Positions 1,178 through 17,570 are shown, counted from the first letter of the stretch. The stretch: 64,000 nucleotides of DNA from Vampirovibrionales bacterium (GCA_029262635.1 JAJCZA010000023.1:1-64000); one strand, 5' to 3'. The notes: generated from the sequence alone by a model not told the origin. Numbers and translations are program-made.

Positions 1178-1855
1178 ATGGAGGAAGTTTTTGCCTTTAT
1201 TGATGGTTTTAATGTTTATCATCACTTGGAAGCTCACAATATAGCTACAGGTGAAAATCTTAAATGGCTAAACTACCCTACACTCATAGGAGCGTTAGCA
1301 AAAAAGGTCGTACCTGGGGAGAATATTTACTTCTTTACGGCTCAACCATTTCATGTTTCTAGCGCGAAACAAGATCGTTATCGCTTATTTTGTAAAGCTC
1401 AAAAGATGATGGGGGTTCAAGTTTTAGAAGGACGGTTTAAACAGAATATTACCAAATGCAAATCAACCCCCTGTGGAGAGTTTAAAAAATACCCTATTCA
1501 TCAAGAGAAACAGACTGATGTAAATATTGGCGTTAAATTAATAGAAATGGCTCATAAGAATCCAGAAGGTCGATTTTATTTAATTACTGCTGATACAGAT
1601 CAAATACCAACAGCAAGAATGATGAAAAATTTATTCCCGAAAGCACGCTTCTTTTGGGTGTCTCCACATAATAAAACTGTCGCTGGGGAAATTCGACAAC
1701 TTCTTAATAGAAAACAAATCTTGAGTCTGCGATGGAAGTATTACCGAGAAAACCAAATGCCTGTTAGATTAACAGTTAATGGACAATCGGTGACATCACC
1801 ATATGCCAAGAAAGAAAAGGTGTTTAAAATTAGTGAAGAAAGGGATAAACAATGA
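1178..1855 (+). CDS. NYN-domain (PIN-like) protein, DUF88/LabA type
   Basis: A 225-residue protein beginning MEEVFAFIDGFNVYHH, the hallmark strand of NYN domains, where Asp9 and Asn12 help bind the catalytic metal. Further acidic positions lie in EKQTDVNIGVKLIEMA and LITADTDQIPTARMM, in the family order. NYN proteins are predicted metal-dependent RNases. The last ~45 residues are basic and lie outside the domain. It lies in a rightward operon in the mobile region and overlaps the next start by four bases (ATGA). A role in RNA cleavage, perhaps defence, is inference; the domain call is firm. Confidence 0.85.
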   Translation: MEEVFAFIDGFNVYHHLEAHNIATGENLKWLNYPTLIGALAKKVVPGENIYFFTAQPFHVSSAKQDRYRLFCKAQKMMGVQVLEGRFKQNITKCKSTPCGEFKKYPIHQEKQTDVNIGVKLIEMAHKNPEGRFYLITADTDQIPTARMMKNLFPKARFFWVSPHNKTVAGEIRQLLNRKQILSLRWKYYRENQMPVRLTVNGQSVTSPYAKKEKVFKISEERDKQ

Positions 1856-3358: not shown

Positions 3359-3405
3359 CCCGCTTTGGGAGCAGGGGGCCGCAGGTTCGAATCCTGTCAT
3401 CCCGA
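3359..3405 (+). pseudogene. 3' fragment of tRNA-Pro(UGG)
   Basis: The sequence runs from the anticodon arm (loop TTTGGGA, anticodon UGG) through the variable region, a T arm (GCAGG-TTCGAAT-CCTGT) and the 3' acceptor strand CATCCCG plus discriminator A. No D arm and no matching 5' acceptor strand (CGGGATG) precede it, and one pair of the anticodon stem is already mismatched, so the 5' half is missing. This is the piece normally left at the far end of an element inserted at the anticodon loop. It suggests that the DNA to the left is another integrated element. The CCA end is also absent here and is found at 23922. Confidence 0.8.
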
Positions 3406-4863
3406 CACTTTTTCAAAATCGAGCCCTTCGGCAATTCTGTCGAAGGGTTCTGTATAGGTATAGTCTAGCTTTCCGTCCTTCAGGGTGCAGTTCGAAAGTA
3501 AAGAACTCAAAATCCGACGCTGTTCCAGGGTATTTTCCTGAGAATATATCCTATAGGCATTTTTGGCCAGTTCGAGAAGCCGAATGCCGCTTTCCACGTA
3601 ATTGAAGTTCCCCTGTTTATGTTGTCGAAGGCTTTCTTCAATTCGGTTCATCTCAGCTTTGTACTCTTCATGTTTCCTGAGCCAAAGTTCTTCTGGAATC
3701 TTGCCGTCCAATTTGTCCTCATAAATCAGTTCAATTCTCTTTGACAATTTATCGTAGCGATCTCTTAACCCTCTTACCCGTTCTTCATGGAACTCGATCT
3801 CTTCCCGGTGACTGGATTTCAAGACGGGAATGATCCCGTTAAGAGCCTCATCGGTTAACTCCAAACGTTTCAGGGCTTCAGCAAACTGATCGGCAATGGC
3901 TTCTTCCCGGATATAACGGCTCTTGCATTCGCCTCGACCCTGGGAGCAGTGATAATACACGTATTTTCCCTTCTGAAGTTGTGGGGTCATAGAACAACCA
4001 CAGATCCCACAGGTCATTAGGCCAGAAAAGGCAAAATCCCGCTTGGTTTTTTGAGGGCGGTTTGCTTTGTCAAAGGTCTCCTGAGTCTGCTCATAGAGGC
4101 TCAAAGGAATAATGGGCTTGTGCTTCCCTTTGTAGAAGTGCTCTTTATAATAGAAATCGCCCGTATAGATAATGTTCTGAAGCATTTTGGCCAATGTGCT
4201 TTTGTGAATTTTGGGTTGTGATGGCCGAAAACGCATTCCTTCCTCATAAAGGACATCCCGCAAGGCGTTTAATGAGTAGTTTCCGCTGGCGTATAGCTCA
4301 AACATCCGGCGAACCCATAGGGCATCAGGTTCATAAACCTCAATCATCCGGGTTTCTTTATTATTCTTATAACCATAAGGGGCAACCAACGGATAATGGC
4401 CTTGCCGAGCCTTTTCAAGCTGCCCTTTCTTCACCTCTTCAGAAAGGTTATCAATGTAGTTCTTGGCCATTAATACCTTGATACCGTGAATGAACTTGAC
4501 GTGTGAGCGGGAATCCTTGCTGAGAATCTCTCCCTCTTTGACAAAATGGACTTCAACATCCAGTTCTTCCAGCAACACATAGTCTTTAAAGTTCCGGTAT
4601 AGCCGGTCTGTTTTCTCCACCAGAATGGTTTTGACATCAGCCGATTGCCGGATGAACTCCAGCATCCGGCTGAACTCTTCTCGTCCGCTTGTTTTAGCGG
4701 TCTCAGCCTCGGAGAATACCTCGACAATCGTTAGGTCATGGCGTTGGGCGTATTGTTCCAGCAGCTTAACCTGGGCTGGAATGGAATAGCCCTCTCTCTC
4801 CTGTTCACGGCTTGAAACACGGGCGTAGGCGACAACTTTCAATGTAAAAAAACCTTCTTGCAT
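3397..4863 (-). CDS. large serine recombinase (site-specific integrase)
   Basis: About 488 residues from the ATG at 4863. A TTG at 4842, ten bases after AAGAAGG, is an equally good start; the frame is open to 4926 but would overlap the divergent HTH gene. The N-terminal resolvase domain begins VVAYARVSSREQEREGYSIP, with the catalytic serine in RVS. It is followed by the Recombinase domain (GYKNNKETRMIEVYEPDALW) and a zinc ribbon (CGICGCSM and YYHCSQGRGEC). A coiled coil comes next. Its last codons and TGA lie inside the tRNA-Pro repeat. Joining the two element ends would replace that stop and add 28 residues (WVDNFRTFIIENQEAMVRLL and onwards) encoded at 23840-23921, so the integrated copy is truncated. 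It presumably catalyses integration and excision of the 3398-23921 element. Confidence 0.9.
   Translation of the reverse strand: MQEGFFTLKVVAYARVSSREQEREGYSIPAQVKLLEQYAQRHDLTIVEVFSEAETAKTSGREEFSRMLEFIRQSADVKTILVEKTDRLYRNFKDYVLLEELDVEVHFVKEGEILSKDSRSHVKFIHGIKVLMAKNYIDNLSEEVKKGQLEKARQGHYPLVAPYGYKNNKETRMIEVYEPDALWVRRMFELYASGNYSLNALRDVLYEEGMRFRPSQPKIHKSTLAKMLQNIIYTGDFYYKEHFYKGKHKPIIPLSLYEQTQETFDKANRPQKTKRDFAFSGLMTCGICGCSMTPQLQKGKYVYYHCSQGRGECKSRYIREEAIADQFAEALKRLELTDEALNGIIPVLKSSHREEIEFHEERVRGLRDRYDKLSKRIELIYEDKLDGKIPEELWLRKHEEYKAEMNRIEESLRQHKQGNFNYVESGIRLLELAKNAYRIYSQENTLEQRRILSSLLSNCTLKDGKLDYTYTEPFDRIAEGLDFEKVSG
3398..3406. repeat. left attachment core (attL) CATCCCGAC
   Basis: A nine-base direct repeat identical to 23913-23921. 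It is the acceptor end of tRNA-Pro. Left flank plus right flank rebuilds a normal tRNA end (CATCCCGACCA), which is the expected attB. Confidence 0.7.
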
Positions 4864-4925
4864 ACTATGACCGAGTATGACAATATTACCCCAGTTTACC
4901 TCGTGAACCAAGCTCGGAGATGACA

Positions 4926-5129
4926 ATGCCTGCTATCAGTGACGAATTGTTAACCGTGGATGATCTGACGGCATATTTTAAAGTGAATCGTCGTACGGTC
5001 TACCGGATGCTGGAAGACAATGAACTGCCCTTTGCCATTAAAGTACGGGGTCATTGGCGGTTTCGTCTGAGCGATGTTCAAAACTGGCTTGAAAACCAGA
5101 AGGTAGGCTCTCAACTCAAGCGTATTTAA
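4926..5129 (+). CDS. excisionase-family HTH DNA-binding protein
   Basis: 67 residues from the ATG at 4926 (GGAG six bases before; an ATG six bases earlier is possible). LLTVDDLTAYFKVNRRTVYR followed by GHWRFRLSDVQNWLE is the helix-turn-helix 'excisionase/MerR-like' (HTH_17) fold. Such proteins direct excision or regulate transcription. It is divergent from the recombinase, which suits an excisionase. Yet it ends nine bases before hsdM and heads the restriction operon, so it could instead be a controller protein. Both roles at once are possible. Confidence 0.8.
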   Translation: MPAISDELLTVDDLTAYFKVNRRTVYRMLEDNELPFAIKVRGHWRFRLSDVQNWLENQKVGSQLKRI

Positions 5130-5144
5130 AAAGGAATTTTGAAA

Positions 5145-7349
5145 ATGCAGAACGGACAACTGAACTGGATAACCAACTTTATTTGGGGTATTGCGGACGA
5201 TATTCTGCGTGATGTATTTGTCCGAGGAAAATATCGGGATGTAATCCTTCCAATGACGGTTATTCGGCGTTTGGATGCGGTGCTAGAACCCACCAAAGAA
5301 GAAGTCTTGAGAATGAACGAACAGCTTGATAAGGCCAGCATTGCCAATAAAGAGCAAGCCTTATGCAAAGCGGCTGGAGAGGCTTTCTATAACATTTCTC
5401 CTTTCAGATTGCGGGATTTAACCTCAAGAGGAAAGCAACAGCAACTTAAAGCTGACTTTGAAGCCTATCTGGATGGCTTTTCGCCCAATGTTCAGGAAAT
5501 TCTGGATAAGTTTAAGTTCAGAAATCAGATCGATACCTTGGTGGAAGCCGATGCTTTGGGGCCATTAATTACCAAGTTTGTAGATCCCTCTATTAACCTC
5601 AGTCCTCGTCCTTTCAACAGCCTGCCTGGCCTGGATAACCATGCCATGGGTACCCTTTTTGAAGAGCTTATACGTAAGTTTAACGAAGAAAATAATGAAG
5701 AGGCTGGAGAACACTTTACGCCCCGCGATGTCGTGAAATTGATGGCCAAACTCATGTTTCTCCCCATTGCGAATGAGTTGGAATCCGGCACTTATCTACT
5801 GTATGACGGCGCTTGTGGAACTGGCGGGATGCTAACTGTTGGGGAAGAAGTTTTGGCCGATATTGCAAAAGCGCATGGGAAAGAAGTTTCTATTCACTTG
5901 TTCGGCCAAGAAATCAACGCCGAAACCTATGCCATCACCAAAGCGGATCTAATACTTAAAGGGGAAGGTGCGGAAGCGGACAATATGAAGTTCGGTTCTA
6001 CTCTGTCTAGCGATGCCTATCCCTCTCGTGAATTTGATTTTATGCTTTCCAATCCCCCGTATGGAAAAAGCTGGAAGACGGATCTGGAAAGAATGGGGGG
6101 TAAGAAAGATTTTCAAGATGCCCGGTTTGTGATTGAGCATGCCAACGACCCGGAATATAAGATGATTACCCGATCCAGTGATGGTCAGTTGATGTTTCTG
6201 GTGAATAAGCTCCAGAAGATGAAACACAACACCAAGTTGGGAAGCCGTATTGCAGAAGTTCATAACGGTTCATCCTTATTTACCGGGGATGCTGGACAAG
6301 GGGAAAGCAATATCCGCCGGTGGATTATCGAGAATGACTGGCTGGAAAGTATTATCGCCTTACCCGAAAATATGTTTTACAACACCGGCATTGCCACCTA
6401 TATTTGGGTTTTGAGCAACAAAAAACCAGCAAACCGCCAAGGTAAGGTACAACTGATTGACGCTACGCAATGGTATGTGCCATTGCGAAAGAATTTAGGC
6501 AAAAAGAACTGTGAATTCTCCGATGAGCAGATTGAGCAAATCTGTGATTTGGTGCTGAACCCCAGAGAAACTGAGCAATCCAAAATCTTCTCTAATAAAG
6601 CCTTTGGTTATTGGAAGGTTACAGTTGAGCGTCCCTTACGTCTCCAGGCTCAAATGAAATATTCCGCAGTGGAAGCTTTACGCTTTGGGAATAACGAACC
6701 TGAGTTGCGTAAAAAGCTATACGGTGAAATCGGCAATCTGTTGGTAGAAAACTTCAATGAGGCCAAGAAGCAGATTGAGCAATACCTAACAGATAACGAA
6801 ATTGAACTGACTGAAGCTCAAAAGAAAAAACTTCTGGATGCTGGTACCTGGAAGAAAGATCACGAAATTTACCAAGCGGCCAAAGTGGCATGGGATGTAT
6901 TGGGCGATCAGCGCTTTGATGATCATAATTTGTTTCGTAAGCGCCTTAGCGAAGTATTGGAAGAAAAGAACACTAAGGTTGGGAAAAGTGAATTAAAAGT
7001 GATTTGGGAAGCCATGAGTTGGCGTGACCCGGAAGCCCCGGCAATCATTAAGAGTAAAAAGAAAAGTGGTGAAATCGAATACGAACCGGATACCGATCTG
7101 CGGGATACAGAGCAAGTACCCCTGCTGGAAGAAGGAGGTATACCAGCCTTTTTTGAACGGGAAGTATTGCCTTATGTGGGCGATGCCTGGATTGACGAGA
7201 GCAAGACTCAGATTGGTTATGAAATCAGCTTTACCCGTTACTTCTACAAGCCAACACCCTTAAGAACGTTGGAAGAAATCAAGACGGATATTTTTGCATT
7301 GGAGCAAGAAACGGAAGGGTTGTTGGAAGAAATCGTGGGTGTGAGGTAA
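5145..7349 (+). CDS. hsdM: type I restriction-modification DNA methyltransferase subunit (HsdM)
   Basis: 734 residues from the ATG nine bases after AGGA (a TTG at 5139 is in frame). It transfers methyl groups from S-adenosylmethionine to adenine N6 in a complex with HsdS. Visible features: an N-terminal HsdM helical domain (ITNFIWGIADDILRDVFVRG), HFTPRDVVKLMAKLM, the AdoMet motif DGACGTGGML (~residue 221) and the catalytic NPPYGKSW (~residue 303). The C-terminal ~200 residues exceed the usual ~500-residue HsdM and include a charged region ending ELEKSEL-like helices and FTRYFYKPTPLRTLEEI, as in the larger HsdM subfamily. Two bases separate it from the PRTase-like gene. Confidence 0.93.
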   Translation: MQNGQLNWITNFIWGIADDILRDVFVRGKYRDVILPMTVIRRLDAVLEPTKEEVLRMNEQLDKASIANKEQALCKAAGEAFYNISPFRLRDLTSRGKQQQLKADFEAYLDGFSPNVQEILDKFKFRNQIDTLVEADALGPLITKFVDPSINLSPRPFNSLPGLDNHAMGTLFEELIRKFNEENNEEAGEHFTPRDVVKLMAKLMFLPIANELESGTYLLYDGACGTGGMLTVGEEVLADIAKAHGKEVSIHLFGQEINAETYAITKADLILKGEGAEADNMKFGSTLSSDAYPSREFDFMLSNPPYGKSWKTDLERMGGKKDFQDARFVIEHANDPEYKMITRSSDGQLMFLVNKLQKMKHNTKLGSRIAEVHNGSSLFTGDAGQGESNIRRWIIENDWLESIIALPENMFYNTGIATYIWVLSNKKPANRQGKVQLIDATQWYVPLRKNLGKKNCEFSDEQIEQICDLVLNPRETEQSKIFSNKAFGYWKVTVERPLRLQAQMKYSAVEALRFGNNEPELRKKLYGEIGNLLVENFNEAKKQIEQYLTDNEIELTEAQKKKLLDAGTWKKDHEIYQAAKVAWDVLGDQRFDDHNLFRKRLSEVLEEKNTKVGKSELKVIWEAMSWRDPEAPAIIKSKKKSGEIEYEPDTDLRDTEQVPLLEEGGIPAFFEREVLPYVGDAWIDESKTQIGYEISFTRYFYKPTPLRTLEEIKTDIFALEQETEGLLEEIVGVR

Positions 7350-7351
7350 TC

Positions 7352-8374
7352 ATGACGACTCGTACAGACTTGCTAGAATCAATGGCCAATACCATTCAAG
7401 ATTATAGGGCGGGCGAAATTGCTAAGCCAACGTCAGAACATGTGGATCGATGGGTTAAGCAGTTTGACAAAGCTGTGCAGGTTCCCCTTCTGCAAGAGAT
7501 AGATCACGTTCTGAAAAAAACCTATTTTTCGATGGAGAATGTCGGCGGTTTTCTGAAAGCTGTGTCAGCCAATAAAAAGCTTGCTGGAGACAATCCTGTT
7601 CAATTTTGGAAAAATACCAAATTTTTAGACATTCAGGGTGGTGGAAATAGCCAGCACGATATGCTGGCAATGTTTGGCCAACTCTTAAACAAAAAATTCA
7701 ATTTGAACATTGCAGAATGCGGACAAACAGCCGATCAATATGTGTACCTTGATGATGGCCTGTTTACAGGCAATAGAACCCGTCAGGATCTTGAAAAATG
7801 GATAAGAGAAGAAGCGCCTACGGAAGGGACTCTTCATATAATCTATATTGCATTACATAGCGGTGGACAATACTACGCTTCAAATAAAATAAAAGAATTG
7901 GCAAAATCTCTGGGAAAAACCATCGATATTCAATGGTGGCGTAGTATTGAGCTAGAGGATCGAAAAGCACAATCCTATAATTCAGATGTGCTCCGACCTG
8001 TTAGTATCCCTGAAGACAGCTTGGTACAGAACTATGTGACCGGAATGACGTACCCCCCAACACTTCGCACTGCCGGTAGTGTGGGTGTAAACAAGATTTT
8101 TTCCAGCGATACTGGCCGACAGCTTTTAGAGCAGGAGTTTCTTAAAGCGGGTGTAAAGATTCGTAAGCAATGCCCTCATTTGGGAGACACACAGCGACCC
8201 CTTGGCCACATGACTTTGGTGACACTCGGTTTTGGCTCACTCATCGCGACTTTTAGAAATTGTCCCAACAATGCACCCTTGGCACTTTGGGCTGGAGATC
8301 CCTGGCATCCACTTTTCCCAAGAACTACAAATACTCAAACTGCCATGAGACGCTTAATGGAGGATTTGTTTTGA
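7352..8374 (+). CDS. phosphoribosyltransferase-like protein of conflict systems (PRTase-CE type)
   Basis: 340 residues. YVYLDDGLFTGNRTRQDL (Asp134-Asp135) matches the PRPP-binding loop of type I phosphoribosyltransferases (hydrophobic strand, two acids, T-G). The C-terminal part carries RPLGHMTLVTLGFGSLIATF, then RNCPNNAPLALWAGDPWHPL, which I recall as characteristic of the PRTase-CE family described in bacterial immune loci. No function is established for that family as far as I know. Here it is embedded between hsdM (two-base gap) and the NADAR-hsdS gene (four-base TTGA overlap), so it must be co-produced with the restriction enzyme. PRTase homology is well supported; the biochemical role is unknown. 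Confidence 0.75.
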   Translation: MTTRTDLLESMANTIQDYRAGEIAKPTSEHVDRWVKQFDKAVQVPLLQEIDHVLKKTYFSMENVGGFLKAVSANKKLAGDNPVQFWKNTKFLDIQGGGNSQHDMLAMFGQLLNKKFNLNIAECGQTADQYVYLDDGLFTGNRTRQDLEKWIREEAPTEGTLHIIYIALHSGGQYYASNKIKELAKSLGKTIDIQWWRSIELEDRKAQSYNSDVLRPVSIPEDSLVQNYVTGMTYPPTLRTAGSVGVNKIFSSDTGRQLLEQEFLKAGVKIRKQCPHLGDTQRPLGHMTLVTLGFGSLIATFRNCPNNAPLALWAGDPWHPLFPRTTNTQTAMRRLMEDLF

Positions 8375-10533
8375 CAGTTCAAGCCTCCAAGCATATCCGT
8401 ATATACGAGCCTGCTGAATGTGTGGTGTTTCTCAAGACCAATGAAGCCTTTGGTGGGCTATCCAATATGTGTGCCGGATTTCTGTTGCGGGTGAATGGGG
8501 TTAAAATTCTCACTTCTGAAGCTCTGTATCAGGCTTGCCGCTTTCCTCACATGCCCGAAGTCCAGCGGGTGATTATCGCTCAATCCAGCCCGATGACCGC
8601 CAAAATGAAGAGCAAGCCGCACCGAAAAAACTCACGGGCCGATTGGGATAAAGTTCGGGTGAGTATCATGCGCTGGTGCTTGCGAGTTAAGCTGGCCCAA
8701 AACTGGAACCAGTTTAGTCGATTGCTTTTAAGAACGGGTGATAAGCCCATTGTGGAGCAATCCCGCAAGGATGATTTTTGGGGCGCGAAGGTACAAGATG
8801 ATGGCACCCTTATGGGTATGAACGTGCTGGGCCGTCTGTTGATGGAACTCAGGGAACTGATAAAAACCGAGCCACAGGAAGCATTACTGCAAGTACCACC
8901 CTTATCGATTCCAGATTTCTTATTATATGGACAACCGATTGGCCTGATTGCGCCCGTGGGGCAAGAAGCGATGCCAATCGTAGAAGCCCTTCCATTAGAG
9001 TCCGTTCAGGCATCGCTGTTTGATGCGATGGCCAACGAAGCACCCGAACTATCCAAACCCAGTCTTGAAACAGATGGAGCCGAGCCGTTAATGACAGCAA
9101 CTATTGTTGAGGAAAACCCGTCCATATCAGCAGGTTTTAAACCTTATCCAGATTACCAGGATTCATCTATTGAATGGTTGGGGCAGGTTCCATTGCATTG
9201 GGATGTGAGACCAGGGCTTTCAGCTTTTTCGCCTAAAAAGATCAAGAATATTGGCCATAAAGAATCCACAGTGCTGTCTCTTAGTTATGGACGGATTATT
9301 GTTAAACCTCCTGAAAAACTGCATGGACTGGTTCCTGAATCATTTGAAACGTACCAGCTAATTGATCCGGGGAATATTATTATTCGGCCAACAGACCTTC
9401 AAAATGATAAAGTGAGTCTTAGAATTGGCTTGGCCAAAAACAAAGGAATAATTACATCAGCATACCTTTGCTTGACTACAAATAGTCGAATGACATTCGA
9501 GTTCGGCTATTACCTTCTCCATACTTATGACTTGATGAAAATTTTCTACGGGCTGGGTTCTGGTCTTCGCCAGAATCTTGATTACTCAGATATTAAACGT
9601 ATTCCCATTGCAATTCCACCTCTTGATGAGCAAGATAAGATTGTGGAATTCCTTGACTCTGCTAGCCGAAAAATTTCAAAATTCATCCGAAACAAGCAAA
9701 AGCTGATTGCCCTGCTGAAAGAGCAAAAGCAAAACATCATCAATCAAGCCGTGACTCGTGGGACTAATCCAAACGTGCGTCTCAAGCCATCCGGCATCGA
9801 GTGGCTAGGGGATATTCCTGAACATTGGGAGGTGGCTCCGATTAAACGAGCGTTCGTTATTATGGATTATGGAACTTCTGAAAGCTCAAAAGATGAGGGC
9901 GAATATAAAGTTCTAACAATGGGCCATATTAGAGATGGTATCGTCTCTACGAATAAAACGGGTTATTTAAACGAAATTCCAAAAAACCTTTTATTACAAA
10001 AGGATGATCTTCTTTTTAATAGAACAAATAGTTTAGAGCTTGTAGGTAAGGTTGGTATCTTTAAAGGAACTAAAGAAGATAAAGTCACATTTGCTTCTTA
10101 TTTGGTAAGAATGAGAGTAAATGAGACTACCATCCCAGGTTATATGAATTATCTGTTAAATAGTATTAATGTGCTTTCTTTTGCAAGGCAACATGCTATT
10201 CCCAGCTTACACCAAGCTAATCTTAATCCCACTCGGTATGGGAGGCTTGGAATTCCATTTCCTCCAAAAGAAGAGCAGGTCATAATTTTCAATTTTATAA
10301 CCAATGAGTGTTCAGGCATTGAAAACGTGATTAGCCGGACAGAGCAAGAAATACAACTCATGCAGGAATACCGAACTCGCCTAATCTCGGATGCGGTAAC
10401 AGGCAAAATTGATGTTCGTGATGTTCCGCTTGAAAGTGTTGACATCGAAGCAGATATTTCTCTGGATGACATCGAGCTAGATGAGGATGAGGTACTAGAA
10501 GGTGAGGAGGAGTTGGCACATGCCGCCGACTGA
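8371..10533 (+). CDS. hsdS: NADAR domain fused to type I specificity subunit (HsdS)
   Basis: 720 residues from the TTG at 8371, seven bases after GGAGG and overlapping the previous stop as TTGA; the frame is open to 8260 but that part only shadows the PRTase gene. Residues ~1-165 are a NADAR domain: FGGLSNM, EALYQACRFP, LLLRTGDKPIVEQSRKDDFW and MGMNVLGRLLMELR. NADAR proteins act on ADP-ribose derivatives, and some remove ADP-ribose from guanine. After a Pro/Ala-rich linker come two HsdS target-recognition halves, starting YPDYQDSSIEWLGQVPLHWD (~residue 259) and LKPSGIEWLGDIPEHWEVAP (~471), with the typical end RLISDAVTGKIDVR. HsdS normally has no enzymatic domain, so the fusion is unusual. 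It overlaps hsdR by 14 bases. Confidence 0.88.
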   Translation: MTVQASKHIRIYEPAECVVFLKTNEAFGGLSNMCAGFLLRVNGVKILTSEALYQACRFPHMPEVQRVIIAQSSPMTAKMKSKPHRKNSRADWDKVRVSIMRWCLRVKLAQNWNQFSRLLLRTGDKPIVEQSRKDDFWGAKVQDDGTLMGMNVLGRLLMELRELIKTEPQEALLQVPPLSIPDFLLYGQPIGLIAPVGQEAMPIVEALPLESVQASLFDAMANEAPELSKPSLETDGAEPLMTATIVEENPSISAGFKPYPDYQDSSIEWLGQVPLHWDVRPGLSAFSPKKIKNIGHKESTVLSLSYGRIIVKPPEKLHGLVPESFETYQLIDPGNIIIRPTDLQNDKVSLRIGLAKNKGIITSAYLCLTTNSRMTFEFGYYLLHTYDLMKIFYGLGSGLRQNLDYSDIKRIPIAIPPLDEQDKIVEFLDSASRKISKFIRNKQKLIALLKEQKQNIINQAVTRGTNPNVRLKPSGIEWLGDIPEHWEVAPIKRAFVIMDYGTSESSKDEGEYKVLTMGHIRDGIVSTNKTGYLNEIPKNLLLQKDDLLFNRTNSLELVGKVGIFKGTKEDKVTFASYLVRMRVNETTIPGYMNYLLNSINVLSFARQHAIPSLHQANLNPTRYGRLGIPFPPKEEQVIIFNFITNECSGIENVISRTEQEIQLMQEYRTRLISDAVTGKIDVRDVPLESVDIEADISLDDIELDEDEVLEGEEELAHAAD

Positions 10534-13465
10534 TACGAGTGAAAAGGGGCTAGAATCCCTCATTATTCAATACCTTGTTTCAGAAGCGGGCTACCAGCAA
10601 GGCCACTCTAACGATTATGACCCGGAACATGCCTTGGACTTGGTGAAACTGGGAGAATTTATTAAAGCCACTCAGCCAGACGTGTATGAGGCCGTATCGC
10701 TTGGAACAGACTCTCCCAAGCGCACCCAGTTCTTGCATCGTTTGCAAGGGGAAATTGCCAAGCGCGGTGTGATTGATGTGCTTCGCACGGGGATTAAACA
10801 TGGGCCGCTTTCGGTCATTATGCTGTTTTATGGAACGCCATCTGCCGGTAACCCCAAGGCCCAAGAGCAATACAAGGCCAATATCTTTAGCATTACCCGG
10901 CAACTTCACTTTAGCAAAGACGAAACCATGCTCTCGCTCGATATGGCGTTGTTTATAAATGGTCTGCCCGTGGCCACGTTTGAGCTAAAGAACAACCTGA
11001 CCAAACAAAACTATTGGGACGCCATTGAACAATATCAAAACGACCGTAATCCCCAGGAACTTTTATTTCAGAAGTTTCGGTGCGCTGTCCATTTTGCGCT
11101 GGACGATCAGCAGGTGTGGATGTGTACGGAACTGAAAGGCAAGGCGTCCTGGTTTCTGCCCCTTAACAAGGGTTTTAATGATGCCGCCGGAAACCCTCCC
11201 AACCCCAACGGCCTGAAGACCGATTACCTGTGGAAAGAGATCCTAACCAAGGATAGCCTGACCAATATTTTGGAAAATTATGCTCAGGTGGTTGAAAAAG
11301 AAGACCCGAAAACTAAAAAGAAGAAAAAGACGCAGATTTTCCCCCGATATCACCAGTTGGATGTCGTCCGTCAGTTATTAACAAAGGTTCAGGAGGAAGG
11401 CGCGGGCCATCGATATCTCATCCAGCATTCCGCTGGAAGCGGCAAAAGCAATTCCATTACCTGGTTGGCTCATCAGTTGATTGAGGTGGAGCAGAACGGG
11501 CAAAAAGCATTTGATTCGGTCATTGTGGTGACTGATCGCCGGATTCTGGACAAGCAGATCAAGGACAACATCAAACAGTTTGCCCAGGTTGCCTCTACCG
11601 TAGGCCATTCGCAACATTCATCCGACCTGCGGGATTATCTGAAATCCGGCAAGAAGATCATTATTACCACCGTGCAGAAATTTCCCTTTGTGGTGGATGC
11701 CATCGGAAACGAACACCGGGATCGGAAATACGCCATTATCATTGACGAGGCCCACTCCAGCCAGAGCGGGCGCACGGCGGCAAAGATGAACATGACCCTC
11801 TCTGCGGAGGGCACTGAGGCCGAGGAGGAAGAGCCGGAAGATATTATCAACCGCTATATGGAAGCGCGGAAAGTGGCCTCCAATGCCAGCTATTTTGCAT
11901 TTACCGCCACCCCCAAGAACAAAACTCTGGAAGTGTTCGGCATGCCCTATAACGAGGGAGACAAGGTCAAGCATCGTCCGTTCCATAGCTATACGATGAA
12001 ACAGGCCATCCAGGAAGGCTTTATTCTGGACGTACTGGAACACTATACGCCGGTGCAAAGTTACTACCGGTTGATCCAGACCGTGGAAAATGATCCCGAA
12101 TTCGATACCAAAAAGGCCAAAAAGAAATTGCGCCGCTACGTGGAGTCCCACGATTATGCCATTGAGCAAAAGGCGGAAATCATGGTGGATCACTTTCTGG
12201 AAGAGGTGATTGCGCCTCAGAAAATTGGGGGTAAGGCACGGGCCATGGTGGTGACCGGAAACATCCAGCGGGCTCTCCAGTATTACTTTGCCTTCAAAAA
12301 GTATCTGGAGGAAATCAAAAGCCCCTATAAGGCCATTGTTGCCTTCTCTGGGGAGCCGGAGTTTAAGGGCGAAAAAGTGACCGAAGCCGGATTAAACGGC
12401 TTCCCAAGTAAAGACATCCCGGATCGGATTCAGGAAGAACCCTATCGCTTTCTTATCGTTGCCGATAAGTTTCAGACCGGCTATGACGAGCCGTTGCTTC
12501 ATACCATGTACGTGGACAAGCCTCTGGAAGGCATTAAAGCCGTACAAACCTTGTCCCGCCTGAACCGAGCATACCCGAAAAAGCATGACACTTTTGTGCT
12601 CGACTTTCTCAACAATGTGGAGACCATCGAAGCCGCATTCTCAGACTATTACCGAACCACGATCCTCAGCGAAGAGACCGATCCCAACAGACTGCATGAC
12701 TTGAAGGCCGAATTGGACGGCTATCAGGTCTACCGCTGGGAGCAGGTGGAACAGTTTGTTCAACTGTATCTGACCGGTGCAAGCCGGGAACAGCTTGATC
12801 CCATTCTGGATGTGTGTGTGGGTCATTATCTTGAATTGGATGAGGATGGTCAGGTGGATTTCAAGGCGAAAGCCAAGGGCTTTAACCGGATGTATGGGTT
12901 CCTGGCCTCGATCCTGCCCTTCAGCAATGCAGAGTGGGAAAAGTTCTCTATCTTCCTGCATTTCCTGATTCCCAAGCTTCCGGCTCCCAAAGAGGAGGAT
13001 TTATCCAGGGGAGTTTTGGAAGCCATTGATATGGACAGTTACCGTGTGGAAAAACAGGCAGAAATGGCAATTGTTCTGGCCGATCAGGATGCCGAAGTTG
13101 ACCCGGTACCAACGGCGGTTGGGGGCAGTAAACCGGAACCGGAACTGGACTACCTCAGTAACATCATTCGGGAGTTCAATGACCTGTTTGGCAATATTGG
13201 CTGGACGGATGAGGACAAAATTCGTCAGGTGATTGCGGAAGAGCTACCCGCCAGAGTGATGGCAGACAAGGCTTACCAGAACGCCAAGAAGAACTCAGAC
13301 GAGCAAAACGCCCGAATTGAGCATGACAGGGCACTGGAGAAGGTTTTAATCGGCCTTTTGTCGGATCATACGGAATTGTATAAACAGTTCAGCGATAACC
13401 CCACGTTCAAAAAATGGCTGTCCAAAAGAATTTTTGATGTGACGTATGGTTCCGATATCGCTTGA
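10520..13465 (+). CDS. hsdR: type I restriction endonuclease subunit (HsdR)
   Basis: 981 residues from the ATG at 10520, nine bases after GGAGG inside the end of hsdS (a GTG at 10502 is in frame). It translocates DNA using ATP and cuts it at a distance when HsdS meets an unmethylated site. N-terminal nuclease domain: LSLDMALFINGLPVATFELK contains the D...ExK motif (~residues 135-155). Helicase motor: HSAGSGKSNS (Walker A, ~residue 304), IIIDEAHSSQSG (DEAH box, ~407), FAFTATP (motif III), and QTLSRLNRAYPKKH (motif VI). C-terminal helical region. Length and motif order are normal for HsdR, so the restriction activity appears intact. Confidence 0.94.
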   Translation: MPPTDTSEKGLESLIIQYLVSEAGYQQGHSNDYDPEHALDLVKLGEFIKATQPDVYEAVSLGTDSPKRTQFLHRLQGEIAKRGVIDVLRTGIKHGPLSVIMLFYGTPSAGNPKAQEQYKANIFSITRQLHFSKDETMLSLDMALFINGLPVATFELKNNLTKQNYWDAIEQYQNDRNPQELLFQKFRCAVHFALDDQQVWMCTELKGKASWFLPLNKGFNDAAGNPPNPNGLKTDYLWKEILTKDSLTNILENYAQVVEKEDPKTKKKKKTQIFPRYHQLDVVRQLLTKVQEEGAGHRYLIQHSAGSGKSNSITWLAHQLIEVEQNGQKAFDSVIVVTDRRILDKQIKDNIKQFAQVASTVGHSQHSSDLRDYLKSGKKIIITTVQKFPFVVDAIGNEHRDRKYAIIIDEAHSSQSGRTAAKMNMTLSAEGTEAEEEEPEDIINRYMEARKVASNASYFAFTATPKNKTLEVFGMPYNEGDKVKHRPFHSYTMKQAIQEGFILDVLEHYTPVQSYYRLIQTVENDPEFDTKKAKKKLRRYVESHDYAIEQKAEIMVDHFLEEVIAPQKIGGKARAMVVTGNIQRALQYYFAFKKYLEEIKSPYKAIVAFSGEPEFKGEKVTEAGLNGFPSKDIPDRIQEEPYRFLIVADKFQTGYDEPLLHTMYVDKPLEGIKAVQTLSRLNRAYPKKHDTFVLDFLNNVETIEAAFSDYYRTTILSEETDPNRLHDLKAELDGYQVYRWEQVEQFVQLYLTGASREQLDPILDVCVGHYLELDEDGQVDFKAKAKGFNRMYGFLASILPFSNAEWEKFSIFLHFLIPKLPAPKEEDLSRGVLEAIDMDSYRVEKQAEMAIVLADQDAEVDPVPTAVGGSKPEPELDYLSNIIREFNDLFGNIGWTDEDKIRQVIAEELPARVMADKAYQNAKKNSDEQNARIEHDRALEKVLIGLLSDHTELYKQFSDNPTFKKWLSKRIFDVTYGSDIA

Positions 13466-13513: not shown

Positions 13514-15202
13514 ATGACAACCGAAGTGCTTACTCCACCAAGTCAGTTGGGATCTGTGTCCTTTCAAAAATATCGGCCAGTCATACGTCGAATCTTCGAT
13601 ATTGAGGGTACCTTGGCAATTCATCGGCAGAATGCCCCTGTTGAAATGGTTGTGCGCCAATCCCGGCAAATTTTCATTGATTGGCTCAAGCAGAAAAACG
13701 TCTATATCTCCCATGATGGTTTTTCGGGTAAGAGCTTTGTTTCCCAACCACACTTCGGTTACAAACCTGCGGAGGGTATCGCGCTGGAAGGGCAATGGGC
13801 CGTGCAACTCATTGATGACGACAAACAAGTGCCCGAAAGAAAATGGATGACAGAGTTTTATCTGGATTATAGGCAGTGGCCGGTTCGCTGCTGCATTCGC
13901 CAAACGGTTTCCCAGCCGCAAAACTCTACCTTTGAACTGCCTGAAGTCACAGTACCTAAACTTCCCCATTTTGTCCGAACATTATGTGATGAAATCGGCC
14001 TGTATGATAGTACCCATGGCTTCCTACCCGAACCATGGGAAGTGGAAGCGAGCAGTAATTTTGAAGAGTTTTACCGGGTTTTGCTAGATTCCAACCGGAC
14101 TCGCCCTATTCTGGCCGTTGCCAAAAGCAAACAAGAGCAAGCGCCACTGTTAAATGCAAGCTGGTTGGCCGAACATATGCTCGGCATTGCGCATGTTCTG
14201 GTGCTGGATAGCTCATGCGGCTGGGAACTTGAAAAACGTCTAGGAAAAGACTTCACGGTCTATGACGGTGCGGTTCGAACTTATCAGCCCAGCTTGTCCG
14301 CCCTGGATGACGAGCCTTACCAGCATCCGCTCATTCTGTCACGCAAAATCCAGAACTGGGAGGGCGGCACAAAAGCGCTGGAAGAATTTTTGGCAAGCAG
14401 GCTGACAAAATCGTGCTCGTATGCCTTGGCCAAATCCAACCGTCTCTATGCCTTCTCGGATTTCAGAAACCAACAGCTTGAACAACAAAGCGTTGAGGAG
14501 GCAGCCACCTCAGAACCCTCCGAAAGTGTTGCGAGCGAGCGGCTACAATCATTGGAACGGCAGGCTCTTACGTTAAAAGAAGAACGGAATTATTATGAAC
14601 AGGAAGCGTTGGGATTGGAGACCGAACGTAACCAGACAACTAAACTAATGGATGCGTTGAAGGCCGAAAATATCTCCCTTCTAAGTTCGGTTCGTGAATT
14701 GACCAGCGAGAATCAGCAACTTATCCAGTCTGTCCACCATCAGGTTGAGGAATATCCAAGCTCTCTCGGTGAACTACAGGCATGGGCCGGGAAGCACTGG
14801 CAAGGCAAGCTCCATTTTGCGAACCGTGCTTATCGAGGTGCTAAAAGCGCCTATTACGAGGATGTAGAGCTGGTTTATAAAGCATTGGACTTATTGGCGA
14901 ATGAGTATCGGGATATGCGTTTAAACCCCGGCACACAAGCCTTTGAAGATTATCAAGGCAGGTTGTTAACCTTGGGTTTGGAAGATCAGGATGTCTTTTC
15001 CTCGGAAGGTTCAGCCGGTAGTTTTGGCGACGAATACTATATTGACTGGCAGGGGCAACGATCCCAGTTAAGCCAGCACCTGAAAAAAGGAAACAGCCAT
15101 GAGCAACGTTATTGCCTGAGAGTTTATTATTTCTGGTGCAACGAGACGGAAATGGTTGTTATCGGGTGGCTGCCTTCACACTTAAAAAACAGGGCGACCT
15201 AA
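13514..15202 (+). CDS. unknown coiled-coil protein trailing the RM operon
   Basis: 562 residues; ATG preceded by AGGAGA at good spacing, 48 bases after hsdR. I do not recognise a family. The N-terminal ~330 residues are a mixed alpha/beta globular region. Residues ~340-415 form a coiled coil (LERQALTLKEERNYYEQEAL and following). The C-terminal ~145 residues look like a separate domain that begins SLGELQAWAGKHWQGKLHFA and ends LRVYYFWCNETEMVVIGWLP, a strand pair reminiscent of the RelE/ParE-like fold, although homology is unproven. The short gap and orientation make it a likely sixth member of the RM operon. It could be an additional effector or a partner of the NADAR/PRTase module. Confidence 0.75.
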   Translation: MTTEVLTPPSQLGSVSFQKYRPVIRRIFDIEGTLAIHRQNAPVEMVVRQSRQIFIDWLKQKNVYISHDGFSGKSFVSQPHFGYKPAEGIALEGQWAVQLIDDDKQVPERKWMTEFYLDYRQWPVRCCIRQTVSQPQNSTFELPEVTVPKLPHFVRTLCDEIGLYDSTHGFLPEPWEVEASSNFEEFYRVLLDSNRTRPILAVAKSKQEQAPLLNASWLAEHMLGIAHVLVLDSSCGWELEKRLGKDFTVYDGAVRTYQPSLSALDDEPYQHPLILSRKIQNWEGGTKALEEFLASRLTKSCSYALAKSNRLYAFSDFRNQQLEQQSVEEAATSEPSESVASERLQSLERQALTLKEERNYYEQEALGLETERNQTTKLMDALKAENISLLSSVRELTSENQQLIQSVHHQVEEYPSSLGELQAWAGKHWQGKLHFANRAYRGAKSAYYEDVELVYKALDLLANEYRDMRLNPGTQAFEDYQGRLLTLGLEDQDVFSSEGSAGSFGDEYYIDWQGQRSQLSQHLKKGNSHEQRYCLRVYYFWCNETEMVVIGWLPSHLKNRAT

Positions 15203-15460: not shown

Positions 15461-16624
15461 ATGCAAAAAAGTCATCGTGACTATAACGGCAAGTCGTTTC
15501 TTCGGAAACTGGGGCCGGAATGTTTGAAAATGTACCTTCAAGAGAGCGAGCACCCACTGAAACAGATGATGGACTCGTTTCTGGAGGACGGAGAGGATTA
15601 TAACCAGCAAACTCAGGCGGTATTTGAACTGTTTGAGTCGGACGATAATCCACAACGCCAGCAGGATAGCCATAATTGGGCCTTGATCAACGATCTGGCT
15701 TCGGAAAAGGGCTATGCCGAGATGAGACGGGCCTGCAAGGACTGTAACCTGGAACATCTGTTGCAGGAAGACACTACGCCACACAGTCTGGCTATGGAGT
15801 TGTTTCTGAATCATCGCTTTGCGTTTGATCACGCCTATGCCCTGTTGCAGATTGATTTCGTGGAAGGGTGGCGTATCTTTCGAGGGAAAGACATCAGCGA
15901 GTTGAAACCCGATCTGGAGGAGGCTAAACAGAATCTGCAATCCGGGCTGATTGATTTTCTCCGTCGCCATGGTCACGGAAGAGAGTTCAATATCGATTTA
16001 TATCAAAGCCAGGGGCGGATGATTCTGGACATGCGGTATGCGGGGCAACTGGTTCGTCATGAGAATTTTGACGAGGCAGGCCAGCTTCGGGCTACGTCGA
16101 TCCGAAAACCCATGGAAATTGGGCTGGTTTACTACCCGGAAACGGCGCTGCTTAAGGTAAAAACCCCCAGAGGGCAGGATGCTCTGAGTGATGCGGTAAA
16201 GCAGGAGTTTGCTTTTCACTATCTCCAGAACCCCTATGCCTTGTTGGAGAGTAAGGATGGCCAAGTGATCAACCTGGAAGAGTTGAAGACCCGCCGGGCG
16301 TTTCCTCCGACCGATCCTGAACACAAAGTCCGTCAGGTTCGGTTGACCAGTGTTCAATACCTGCCCGTTCCGGGTATTAAAGACAAGGTAACCATCAACT
16401 CATCCCATGGTCGGGTTTGGGAGCGGCTTGAACACTACCGGGAAGACTTAACCCGAATTGAGCTTGTATCAGCAGGCATCCAGTTTGAGTTTGAAGGGAA
16501 AGGCAAGGGGCGTTTACGAACAGTTCACATGACGGATAAAAAGAACCGGGTGACCCTCAATAACAGCCAGCGGGATGATGTGATTGCCTTGTACCTCCAA
16601 CGCTGGGGGCTTCTGAATGTCTGA
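15461..16624 (+). CDS. hypothetical protein, first gene of a two-gene operon
   Basis: 387 residues; AGAGGG lies nine bases before the ATG. I do not recognise it. The N-terminal half is alpha-helical with a Cys pair (RRACKDCNLEHL). The C-terminal half alternates strands, for example EIGLVYYPETALLKVKTPRG, VRLTSVQYLPVPGIKDKVTI and GKGRLRTVHMTDKKNRVTLN. It overlaps the next gene by eight bases, so the two proteins are probably made together and may interact. It lies between the restriction operon and the replication operon of the element. Confidence 0.7.
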   Translation: MQKSHRDYNGKSFLRKLGPECLKMYLQESEHPLKQMMDSFLEDGEDYNQQTQAVFELFESDDNPQRQQDSHNWALINDLASEKGYAEMRRACKDCNLEHLLQEDTTPHSLAMELFLNHRFAFDHAYALLQIDFVEGWRIFRGKDISELKPDLEEAKQNLQSGLIDFLRRHGHGREFNIDLYQSQGRMILDMRYAGQLVRHENFDEAGQLRATSIRKPMEIGLVYYPETALLKVKTPRGQDALSDAVKQEFAFHYLQNPYALLESKDGQVINLEELKTRRAFPPTDPEHKVRQVRLTSVQYLPVPGIKDKVTINSSHGRVWERLEHYREDLTRIELVSAGIQFEFEGKGKGRLRTVHMTDKKNRVTLNNSQRDDVIALYLQRWGLLNV

Positions 16625-17570
16625 CGGCTTGGGAACCATTCTGGCCGGTATCGGTGAAGACCTGGAATTTACGGAACCTGAAGTCAAAGCGTCATTGCAG
16701 AACCGTATTTTTCAGGTTTTCACGAGTACAGGTCTCCTGGAGCCCTATATGGGGCGGAACTGGTATTGTGAATCTTGCCTGGACATTCACGAATATGAGG
16801 ATTTTCGGAAACAGCGATACCGACGATGCCCGGAAGATTTAATGGCCGAAAGGGTGCTTGTGGCAGATGGGGAAGCCCGGCGTTTTCGGTTGTCATGGGA
16901 ACGATTCCGGCAAATCCTCTGTGAAACCAACCACCTGTCCCCCATGTCTGTTCCAGAAAACCGGCCTGTGTTTTTCATCGGCTCAGCATCACGGCATATC
17001 GTCTGTTGGGCTCCGGCCAGTACGCCAGAACAGCTTATAGAAGTAGCCAAGCGACTCAGAATAGATTACCCAAAACCCGATCTGGCGCTGCTGGTTCCGG
17101 ATAAGCTGGTTCTTTCGTCCGACATGGAAACCCAGCTCGCCGATTTAAGGGTTTCCACTCGGAAGTTAGAGGAGACGATACTGAACGGGTGGCAGTTGCC
17201 ACTGAGCGATCAGGCTGAACTAGAAGCACCCAAACTGGTGTTGGATCTCCAAAAACAGAAAATTGTGTTTCAAGGGCAGGCTTGTTCTTTTCCTCCCGGC
17301 AAACAGTATCTGTTCACTACAGCAAAAATTATTATGGAGGCCCAAGGGAGCCTTGTTTCAGAGGCAGATTTTGAATCACAGTATTATGCATTATCTTCCC
17401 AGAACAGTTCTGGCGGGATTGCCATGAGTAACTACGTCCATAAGACAGAAACGCACATCAAAACGCAGCTTGGGACGATTGTTCAGGGAAAAAGATTTTT
17501 TATAAATATACGAGGCCAAGGGTATAAGTTAAATCCGGAATTCTTGCCTGCTAAAACCCTTGCTACATAA
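16617..17570 (+). CDS. winged-helix protein with Zn-binding N-terminal region, unknown
   Basis: 317 residues. Near the N-terminus, WYCESCLDIHEYEDF and a further Cys in RYRRCPED form a possible zinc knuckle. The middle contains a strand-rich segment (RPVFFIGSASRHIVCWAPAS). The C-terminal ~90 residues (FPPGKQYLFTTAKIIMEAQG, ending FFINIRGQGYKLNPE) fit an OmpR/PhoB-type winged helix, whose wing typically ends in 'RGxGYxL'. OmpR-type domains usually bind direct repeats with a period of 10-11 bp. Three exact-period 10-bp repeats lie immediately downstream, before the replication operon, so an autogenous or replication-control role is attractive but inferred. Confidence 0.7.
   Translation: MSDGLGTILAGIGEDLEFTEPEVKASLQNRIFQVFTSTGLLEPYMGRNWYCESCLDIHEYEDFRKQRYRRCPEDLMAERVLVADGEARRFRLSWERFRQILCETNHLSPMSVPENRPVFFIGSASRHIVCWAPASTPEQLIEVAKRLRIDYPKPDLALLVPDKLVLSSDMETQLADLRVSTRKLEETILNGWQLPLSDQAELEAPKLVLDLQKQKIVFQGQACSFPPGKQYLFTTAKIIMEAQGSLVSEADFESQYYALSSQNSSGGIAMSNYVHKTETHIKTQLGTIVQGKRFFINIRGQGYKLNPEFLPAKTLAT

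Follow-up and report, generated by a model that had tools for sequence, protein, structure and literature searches.

A DS-32 pair of PRTase and NADAR within a type I restriction operon, its NADAR domain fused to HsdS

The window, a 64,000-nucleotide stretch of DNA from a Vampirovibrionales bacterium, carries a type I restriction operon in which both genes of a DS-32 anti-phage cassette lie between hsdM and hsdR, in the order hsdM, PRTase-CE gene, NADAR-HsdS fusion gene and hsdR (Table 1). The second cassette component, a NADAR domain, forms the N-terminal part of the specificity subunit, and the same fusion recurs in 33 further loci. We tentatively read the pair as an effector/antidote cassette, in which the PRTase would be a writer and NADAR an eraser tied to HsdS, so that losing or blocking the restriction complex would release the effector; we place this reading slightly below an even chance.

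Organization of the operon

The type I operon around the cassette is apparently intact in sequence, and all three Hsd subunits have their defining domains. HsdM matches PF02384 (E = 1e-52) and contains NPPYGKSW, HsdR matches PF04313 and PF18766 (nuclease and translocase, respectively), and the HsdS part is matched by Methylase_S in two stretches (E = 4e-18) and by PADLOC Specificity_I at residues 257–687 (E = 1e-110), with structural matches to 1yf2, 5ybb and 7bst. The window HsdM shares about 58–65% identity with HsdM of most other fusion loci.

The fusion gene runs from TTG 8371 to 10533 as a single open frame of 720 codons that holds NADAR (PF08719, E = 6e-26, residues 20–164) and a complete HsdS with two target-recognition domains (TRDs), as the preliminary description of this DNA had read it. 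Every motif quoted there is present, namely FGGLSNM, EALYQACRFP, SRKDDFWGAK and MGMNVLGRLLMELR for NADAR, and DDGLFTG and NCPNN for the preceding gene. The TTGA overlap said to join the two genes is real (8371–8374): the start codon TTG (8371–8373) overlaps the PRTase stop codon TGA (8372–8374), and the GGAGG 7 nt upstream is Shine-Dalgarno-like by start scan. The gene layout given earlier is correct and the start implied with it is not; position 8260, where the longest open reading frame begins, was dropped for TTG 8371, which has the Shine-Dalgarno-like sequence and the conserved N terminus.

Table 1. Features of the operon and the embedded cassette, in window coordinates.
Feature	Position	Strand	Basis
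hsdM, type I DNA adenine methyltransferase (HsdM_N and N6_Mtase, NPPY motif)	5139..7349	+	Pfam/PADLOC
PRTase-CE gene (DS-32 component 1), 340 aa	7352..8374	+	PF24390, NF053875
Translational coupling: GGAGG (8359–8363) and TTGA start/stop overlap (8371–8374)	8359..8374	+	Sequence, start scan
NADAR domain (DS-32 component 2), N-terminal part of fusion, residues 1–190	8371..8940	+	PF08719, NF053876
Disordered linker from NADAR to HsdS, residues about 199–252	8965..9126	+	Predicted, pLDDT <50
QASLF, residues 213–217, match to clamp consensus	9007..9021	+	Conserved island in linker
HsdS part with two TRDs and two helical spacers	9139..10533	+	PADLOC Specificity_I, fold matches
hsdR (HSDR_N nuclease, SWI2/SNF2 translocase), 14-bp overlap with hsdS end	10520..13465	+	Pfam

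Identity of the cassette proteins

The assignment of the gene before the fusion to PRTase-CE is borne out by a match to PF24390 (E = 1e-57, residues 31–324). The same protein matches NF053875 at 421 bits (cut-off 250, 322 of 322 positions), and NADAR matches NF053876 at 291 bits (cut-off 240, 181 of 181 positions). Both proteins are above the NCBI equivalog cut-offs, and the pair is a DS-32 cassette, the number 32 being taken from the NCBI model names: NF053875 is the DS32_1 phosphoribosyltransferase-like anti-phage protein and NF053876 the DS32_2 NADAR family anti-phage protein. The apparent source of the name is the DefensePredictor study (Science 2026, PMC13092281), which in the available part of its text names NADAR domains and PRTase among its validated systems and gives nothing on how DS-32 works. 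The two components are thus those of a named system, whereas the preliminary description knew of no described system with this arrangement. Anti-phage activity is reported for the E. coli DS-32 (available part of PMC13092281; NCBIfam naming), which is not the operon of the window. A YbiA-type riboflavin enzyme was considered and rejected for the NADAR part, as TIGR02464 matches just at its cut-off (74.3 versus 73.7 bits) and DS32_2 far higher.

The PRTase contains the PRPP loop YLDDGLFTG, which follows the class I PRTase pattern of a hydrophobic pair and DDxhxTG, and a C-terminal RNCPNN. Residues D134, D135, G140, R302, N303, C304, N306 and N307 show little or no variation across 83 PRTase homologues, fused or free. 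In its AF2 model (pLDDT 94.8) the nearest solved folds are PRTases, but with E = 3e-3 and low TM, which makes it a distant relative. A PDB sequence search with PRTase-CE gave nothing credible, and the window PRTase as a query found no relatives among phages and viral contigs. Its match to PADLOC PRTase_III-A is weak (39 bits), and the neighbours with family matches at 1–18 kb are hsd, HEC and NYN-type genes.

NADAR family proteins remove ADP-ribose from guanine in DNA, and in the P. nicotianae NADAR residues E43, K50, W89, R93, E125 and W133 coordinate ADP-ribose or catalyse (PMC11543638). In the alignment these correspond to E50, R57, W92, R96, E129 and W137 of the window protein, pocket residues that are conserved in every class, and the NADAR lobe of the fusion model has structural matches to YbiA and NADAR-ADPr. 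In both proteins the active-site residues are kept equally in fused and free forms. Conservation and alignment agree with the earlier expectation of intact catalytic residues in both families, and from sequence and models we predict two active enzymes.

Recurrence and origin of the fusion

About 85,000 species genomes were scanned with the PRTase, and the best 80 loci were taken. A NADAR gene follows the PRTase gene in all 83 PRTase-led loci that are testable, with sequence available beyond the PRTase gene; the order is the same throughout, and in most loci the genes are separated by short gaps or overlap slightly. In 33 loci besides the window (34 in all) HsdS, encoded between hsdM and hsdR, has NADAR fused at its N terminus. 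The arrangement is both unusual and conserved, and these loci show the co-occurrence of PRTase-CE, NADAR and HsdS for which a survey had been proposed. By record titles the fusions span about six phyla (Pseudomonadota, Thermodesulfobacteriota, Acidobacteriota, Planctomycetota, Verrucomicrobiota and Chloroflexota); some records are metagenome-assembled genomes, and the Chloroflexota one (L038), whose PRTase is 95% identical to that of L014, is a possible binning error. A frameshift, which had been raised as a potential artefact at the junction, or an assembly join is ruled out by the same fusion in the 33 other loci, and the join falls in a predicted disordered linker.

HsdS is not the only fusion partner. 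In four loci (L033, L048, L049 and L059) the HmaB methylase of Hma, a DUF499-centred, BREX-related system, carries NADAR at its N terminus, and in one viral contig (L129) NADAR has a DUF1156/methylase tail of this type. L067 combines NADAR, DUF4365 and two PRTases in tandem. On the NADAR tree, one clade and thus one origin of the HsdS fusions is rejected (AU p = 0.0014), and on the PRTase tree the fusion and free labels need many changes; several gains or losses are suggested. A NADAR-led scan of viral contigs gave 23 loci, mostly prophage-like, in which the PRTase is directly upstream in 23 of 23 and NADAR is fused to HsdS in three. A possible exception to the pairing is a cyanobacterial-type NADAR (L125), with no PRTase in the approximately 700 bp upstream.

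DS-32 normally stands alone, on plasmids and in E. coli prophages; here the free pair occurs on one record each of Methylobacterium, Vibrio and Klebsiella and in lambdoid prophages of E. coli. The E. coli prophage pair exceeds both DS-32 equivalog cut-offs and has no restriction genes beside it. A free-standing NADAR is a feature of the E. coli form that the 720-aa frame of the window lacks, and it is not among the NCBI family criteria.

Unequal divergence of the modules

Among fusions with PRTases more than 85% identical, NADAR identity is about 93%, as against about 46% for the HsdS part; the cassette therefore appears to be indifferent to the target sequence. Between two nearly identical operons (L089 and L016), HsdM is 96%, HsdR 98% and NADAR 91% identical and the PRTase only 52%, and in prophage pairs NADAR is 86% and the PRTase 52–54% identical; over near-identical operons and prophages together the values are 86–92% for NADAR and 50–54% for the PRTase. 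The PRTase is the diversifying part, and NADAR tolerates widely differing PRTases, which fits an enzyme that reverses a product they share. Non-cognate NADARs also protect in DarTG1 (PMC11543638).

Other insertions occupy type I operons of this lineage. A GmrSD-type DUF262 gene lies between hsdM and the PRTase gene in L016, and a YhcG nuclease gene is found in a type I operon of the same lineage (L122). In Meiothermus (L121), DarT (PF14487, 249 bits, cut-off 150) and DarG (466 bits, cut-off 250) are encoded between hsdS and hsdR, and the HsdR there is 67% identical to that of the window, which places it in the same type I lineage. Thus, an ADP-ribosyl writer/eraser toxin-antitoxin pair occupies the same kind of operon.

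A putative clamp-binding motif in the linker

The fusion linker is divergent save for one island, Q213-x-S215-L216-F217, in which Q is conserved in 85%, S in 76%, L in 100% and F in 88% of the 34 fusions. The pattern Q-x-[SD]-[LM]-[FLI] is found in 25 of the 34 fusion linkers versus 0.17 in shuffles, which ignore kinship. The binding consensus of the bacterial sliding clamp (DnaN) is QL[S/D]LF or QxxLF (PMC12309361), and the QASLF of the window fits it within a linker predicted to be disordered and accessible. Some free DS-32 NADARs end in QGDLF, QPELF, QPALF or QSELF, those of the window's phylum in QLSLI, QLSLL or QLPLI, and intact E. coli-type prophage copies in QSLSLF, with differing residues before it. 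A loose form of the pattern occurs in the last 14 residues of 18 of the 49 free NADARs (31 are without a match) versus 1.1 in shuffles, and in none of eight non-DS-32 NADARs used as controls. We infer that the QxSLF motif binds DnaN, in which case the eraser is probably tied to the clamp as well as to the methylation-guided complex; alternatively, the QxxLF peptide could dock on other partners, the PRTase itself included.

Discussion

The effector/antidote scheme is our proposal for the chemistry and the trigger, built on the observed anatomy, coupling, conservation, recurrence, constant pairing, intact active-site residues and linker motif. The PRTase would use PRPP to place a ribosyl or phosphoribosyl adduct on nucleic-acid bases, or would make a toxic nucleotide, and NADAR would hydrolyse the N-glycosidic bond and thereby reverse the product; precedents for this step are the guanine ADP-ribose made by DarT1 (NADAR) and phosphoribosylamino riboflavin precursors (YbiA). 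The HsdS or HmaB tether and the clamp motif would hold the eraser on the host's own DNA and at its replication forks. The PRTase would be unopposed on phage DNA without eraser cover, or when a phage disables, titrates or dislodges the HsdM2S complex (for example by DNA mimics of the Ocr or ArdA type), and the infection would be blocked or aborted.

The writer-then-eraser order with short overlaps or gaps, as in darT-darG, argues for such a scheme, as do the recurrent N-terminal fusions of NADAR to HsdS (34) and HmaB (4) with constant PRTase pairing, and the retention of NADAR while the PRTase diverges, in line with an eraser whose target product is shared. The DS-32 equivalogs, the Meiothermus DarT-DarG pair, the equal conservation of the active sites, the clamp motif and the probable PRTase effectors of other systems point the same way. 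The roles could be swapped, with the PRTase as the sensor and NADAR as part of the effector. The two mechanisms put forward in the preliminary description, stripping of phage-made ADP-ribosylation and HsdS-guided base modification, stay among the rivals considered below, and neither predicts three facts that favour the writer/eraser cassette: NADAR always travels with the PRTase, the pair works without a restriction system, and DarT-DarG lies in the same kind of operon.

A bolder version, which we regard as speculative, is a new base modification of DNA (or RNA): PRTase-CE would write phosphoribosyl groups from PRPP, and NADAR on the clamp (in fused forms also on HsdS or HmaB) would erase them, keeping self DNA clean until an attack on restriction unleashes the writer.

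Unlikely, in our estimate, is an aid to restriction, in which NADAR on HsdS strips ADP-ribose-like adducts placed by phage so that recognition sites stay readable and the PRTase is a helper. The known removal of ADP-ribose from DNA guanine by this family (PMC11543638), the conserved ADP-ribose pocket and the position of the fused NADAR at recognition sites suit this idea, but NADAR-HsdS without a PRTase was never found among the loci examined (searches led by these two proteins), and the E. coli prophage pair has no adjoining restriction genes.

We give no more credence to a soluble signal, a small nucleotide that the PRTase would make and NADAR would cleave, gated by the restriction complex or by the products of its cleavage. 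Soluble nucleotides are the usual products of class I PRTases, phage NADARs have been argued to act on soluble ADP-ribose derivatives (Iyer et al., PMC9503650), NADAR here might act on soluble nucleotides, and SIR2 or AAA genes adjoin some free pairs (L031 and L035); such a device nevertheless leaves the fusion to DNA-recognition subunits and the clamp-like motif unexplained.

Guided modification, in which HsdS or HmaB steers the pair to write or edit a base mark at or near its targets as a self-mark or a block on phage DNA, is decidedly improbable. It is favoured by the recurrence of fusions to subunits that recognise targets in two unrelated methylation systems, but the predicted writer, the PRTase, is never the fused partner, the TRDs change completely between fusions with closely similar NADARs and PRTases, and free pairs need no TRD. 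Passive hitch-hiking, by which the insertion of a mobile defence pair into an hsd operon led to a read-through fusion that became fixed without function, accords with the extra genes that type I operons commonly host (GmrSD-like DUF262, YhcG nuclease and DarTG) and is nonetheless very hard to credit against conservation in 34 loci with a single origin rejected, independent HmaB fusions, catalytic residues that are intact and a linker motif that is conserved.

The literature searched holds nothing on NADAR with HsdS beyond strain genotypes and nothing on PRTase-CE by name. Provisionally, the parts are known, and the HsdS/HmaB fusion, its breadth and the clamp motif are undescribed in that literature; an embedded-defence preprint (Payne et al., 2024) and the original PRTase-CE and 2012 NADAR papers lie outside its coverage. 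An enzyme can ride as a passenger on a type I specificity subunit, and it appears that restriction enzymes bear a second defence layer, which they perhaps also restrain. The fusions, the DarTG parallel and the clamp motif offer a testable picture of DS-32 as a writer/eraser pair tethered to self DNA, which, if true, would link restriction, toxin-antitoxin chemistry and the replication fork, possibly through a new nucleic-acid modification.

Comparison with known systems

The operon resembles other type I restriction-modification systems in having all three subunits, intact in sequence, and differs in that its HsdS bears a 190-aa N-terminal NADAR and a linker and that hsdM and hsdS are separated by an additional gene. 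In EcoprrI, the anticodon nuclease PrrC is encoded in the type I operon as a second-line effector held by the type I complex. The window operon likewise encodes a candidate second-line effector, but it lacks PrrC homology, its effector would be a PRTase, and its eraser is covalently linked to HsdS.

PRTases are known or suspected toxins and probable effectors in type III retrons and in DprA-PRTase (ShosTA-like) systems (PMC9122126; PMC12548924), and in the latter they partner with DprA-type antitoxins (PMC9122126). Retron type III-A and ShosTA share with the window cassette a PRTase-fold probable effector and a partner protein, but similarity is low (39 bits to PRTase_III-A), and among the family matches in the window operon neither a reverse transcriptase nor DprA is seen.

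DarTG1 (DarT1 and NADAR) is also a toxin-then-eraser pair with NADAR as the eraser. In the window, the predicted writer is a PRTase with a PRPP loop rather than an ADP-ribosyltransferase, the eraser is fused to HsdS, and Pfam finds no DarT match in the operon, where the neighbour of NADAR is PRTase-CE. DarTG2 of Meiothermus (L121) is likewise embedded, in a related hsd operon. With DS-32 itself, the window pair shares both equivalogs, gene order and coupling (a 4-bp TTGA overlap in the window) and the catalytic residues; the E. coli and plasmid NADARs are free and end at about 200 aa, whereas that of the window continues into HsdS within an hsd operon.

Genes flanking the hsd operon of the window

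The gene downstream of hsdR matches HEC-07, a candidate defence family, and a second candidate defence gene, which matches HEC-09, is located in the same island. The two ORFs that follow the HEC-07 gene have no match in Pfam, PADLOC or NCBIfam, and the three genes may constitute one operon. The hsd operon itself may lie inside or next to a mobile element.

Features of the window and of the comparison loci (L; coordinates of each locus)
Feature	Location	Position or context	PADLOC E
NYN-like protein, HEC-09 match	window 1178-1855		3e-27
ORF resembling large serine recombinase	window 3397-4926, minus strand	immediately upstream of hsd operon	
HEC-07 match	window 13514-15202	3' of hsdR	3e-120
Two ORFs	window 15461-16624, 16617-17570	after HEC-07 gene, same direction	
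SIR2-like or AAA ATPase gene	L031 11768-13165; L035 11756-12997	after free DS-32 pair	
Two tandem PRTase genes, then NADAR-DUF4365 fusion	L067 9950-13736		
GmrSD_N (DUF262) gene	L016 8136-9956	between hsdM and PRTase	
DarT-DarG pair	L121 3396-5089	between hsdS and hsdR, Meiothermus plasmid type I operon	

Insertions and NADAR partners in related loci

The type I operon that carries DarT-DarG encodes an HsdR 67% identical to that of the window. The GmrSD_N insertion is found in an entire subgroup of the operons with a NADAR-HsdS fusion (L016 and the similar loci L020, L032 and L089). Beside free DS-32 pairs, in which the NADAR is unfused, the SIR2-like or AAA ATPase genes are possible extra components.

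The DS-32 NADARs of the window's phylum (L091-L096) bear a C-terminal extension of 130–200 aa, which looks like a small helical domain, possibly a winged-helix, and terminates in QLSLI/QLSLL/QLPLI-type motifs. At five further loci (L033, L048, L049, L059 and L129), a DS-32-type NADAR forms the N terminus of a DUF1156 methylase, with the PRTase immediately 5´ of the fusion; these methylases resemble HmaB of the BREX-related Hma systems.
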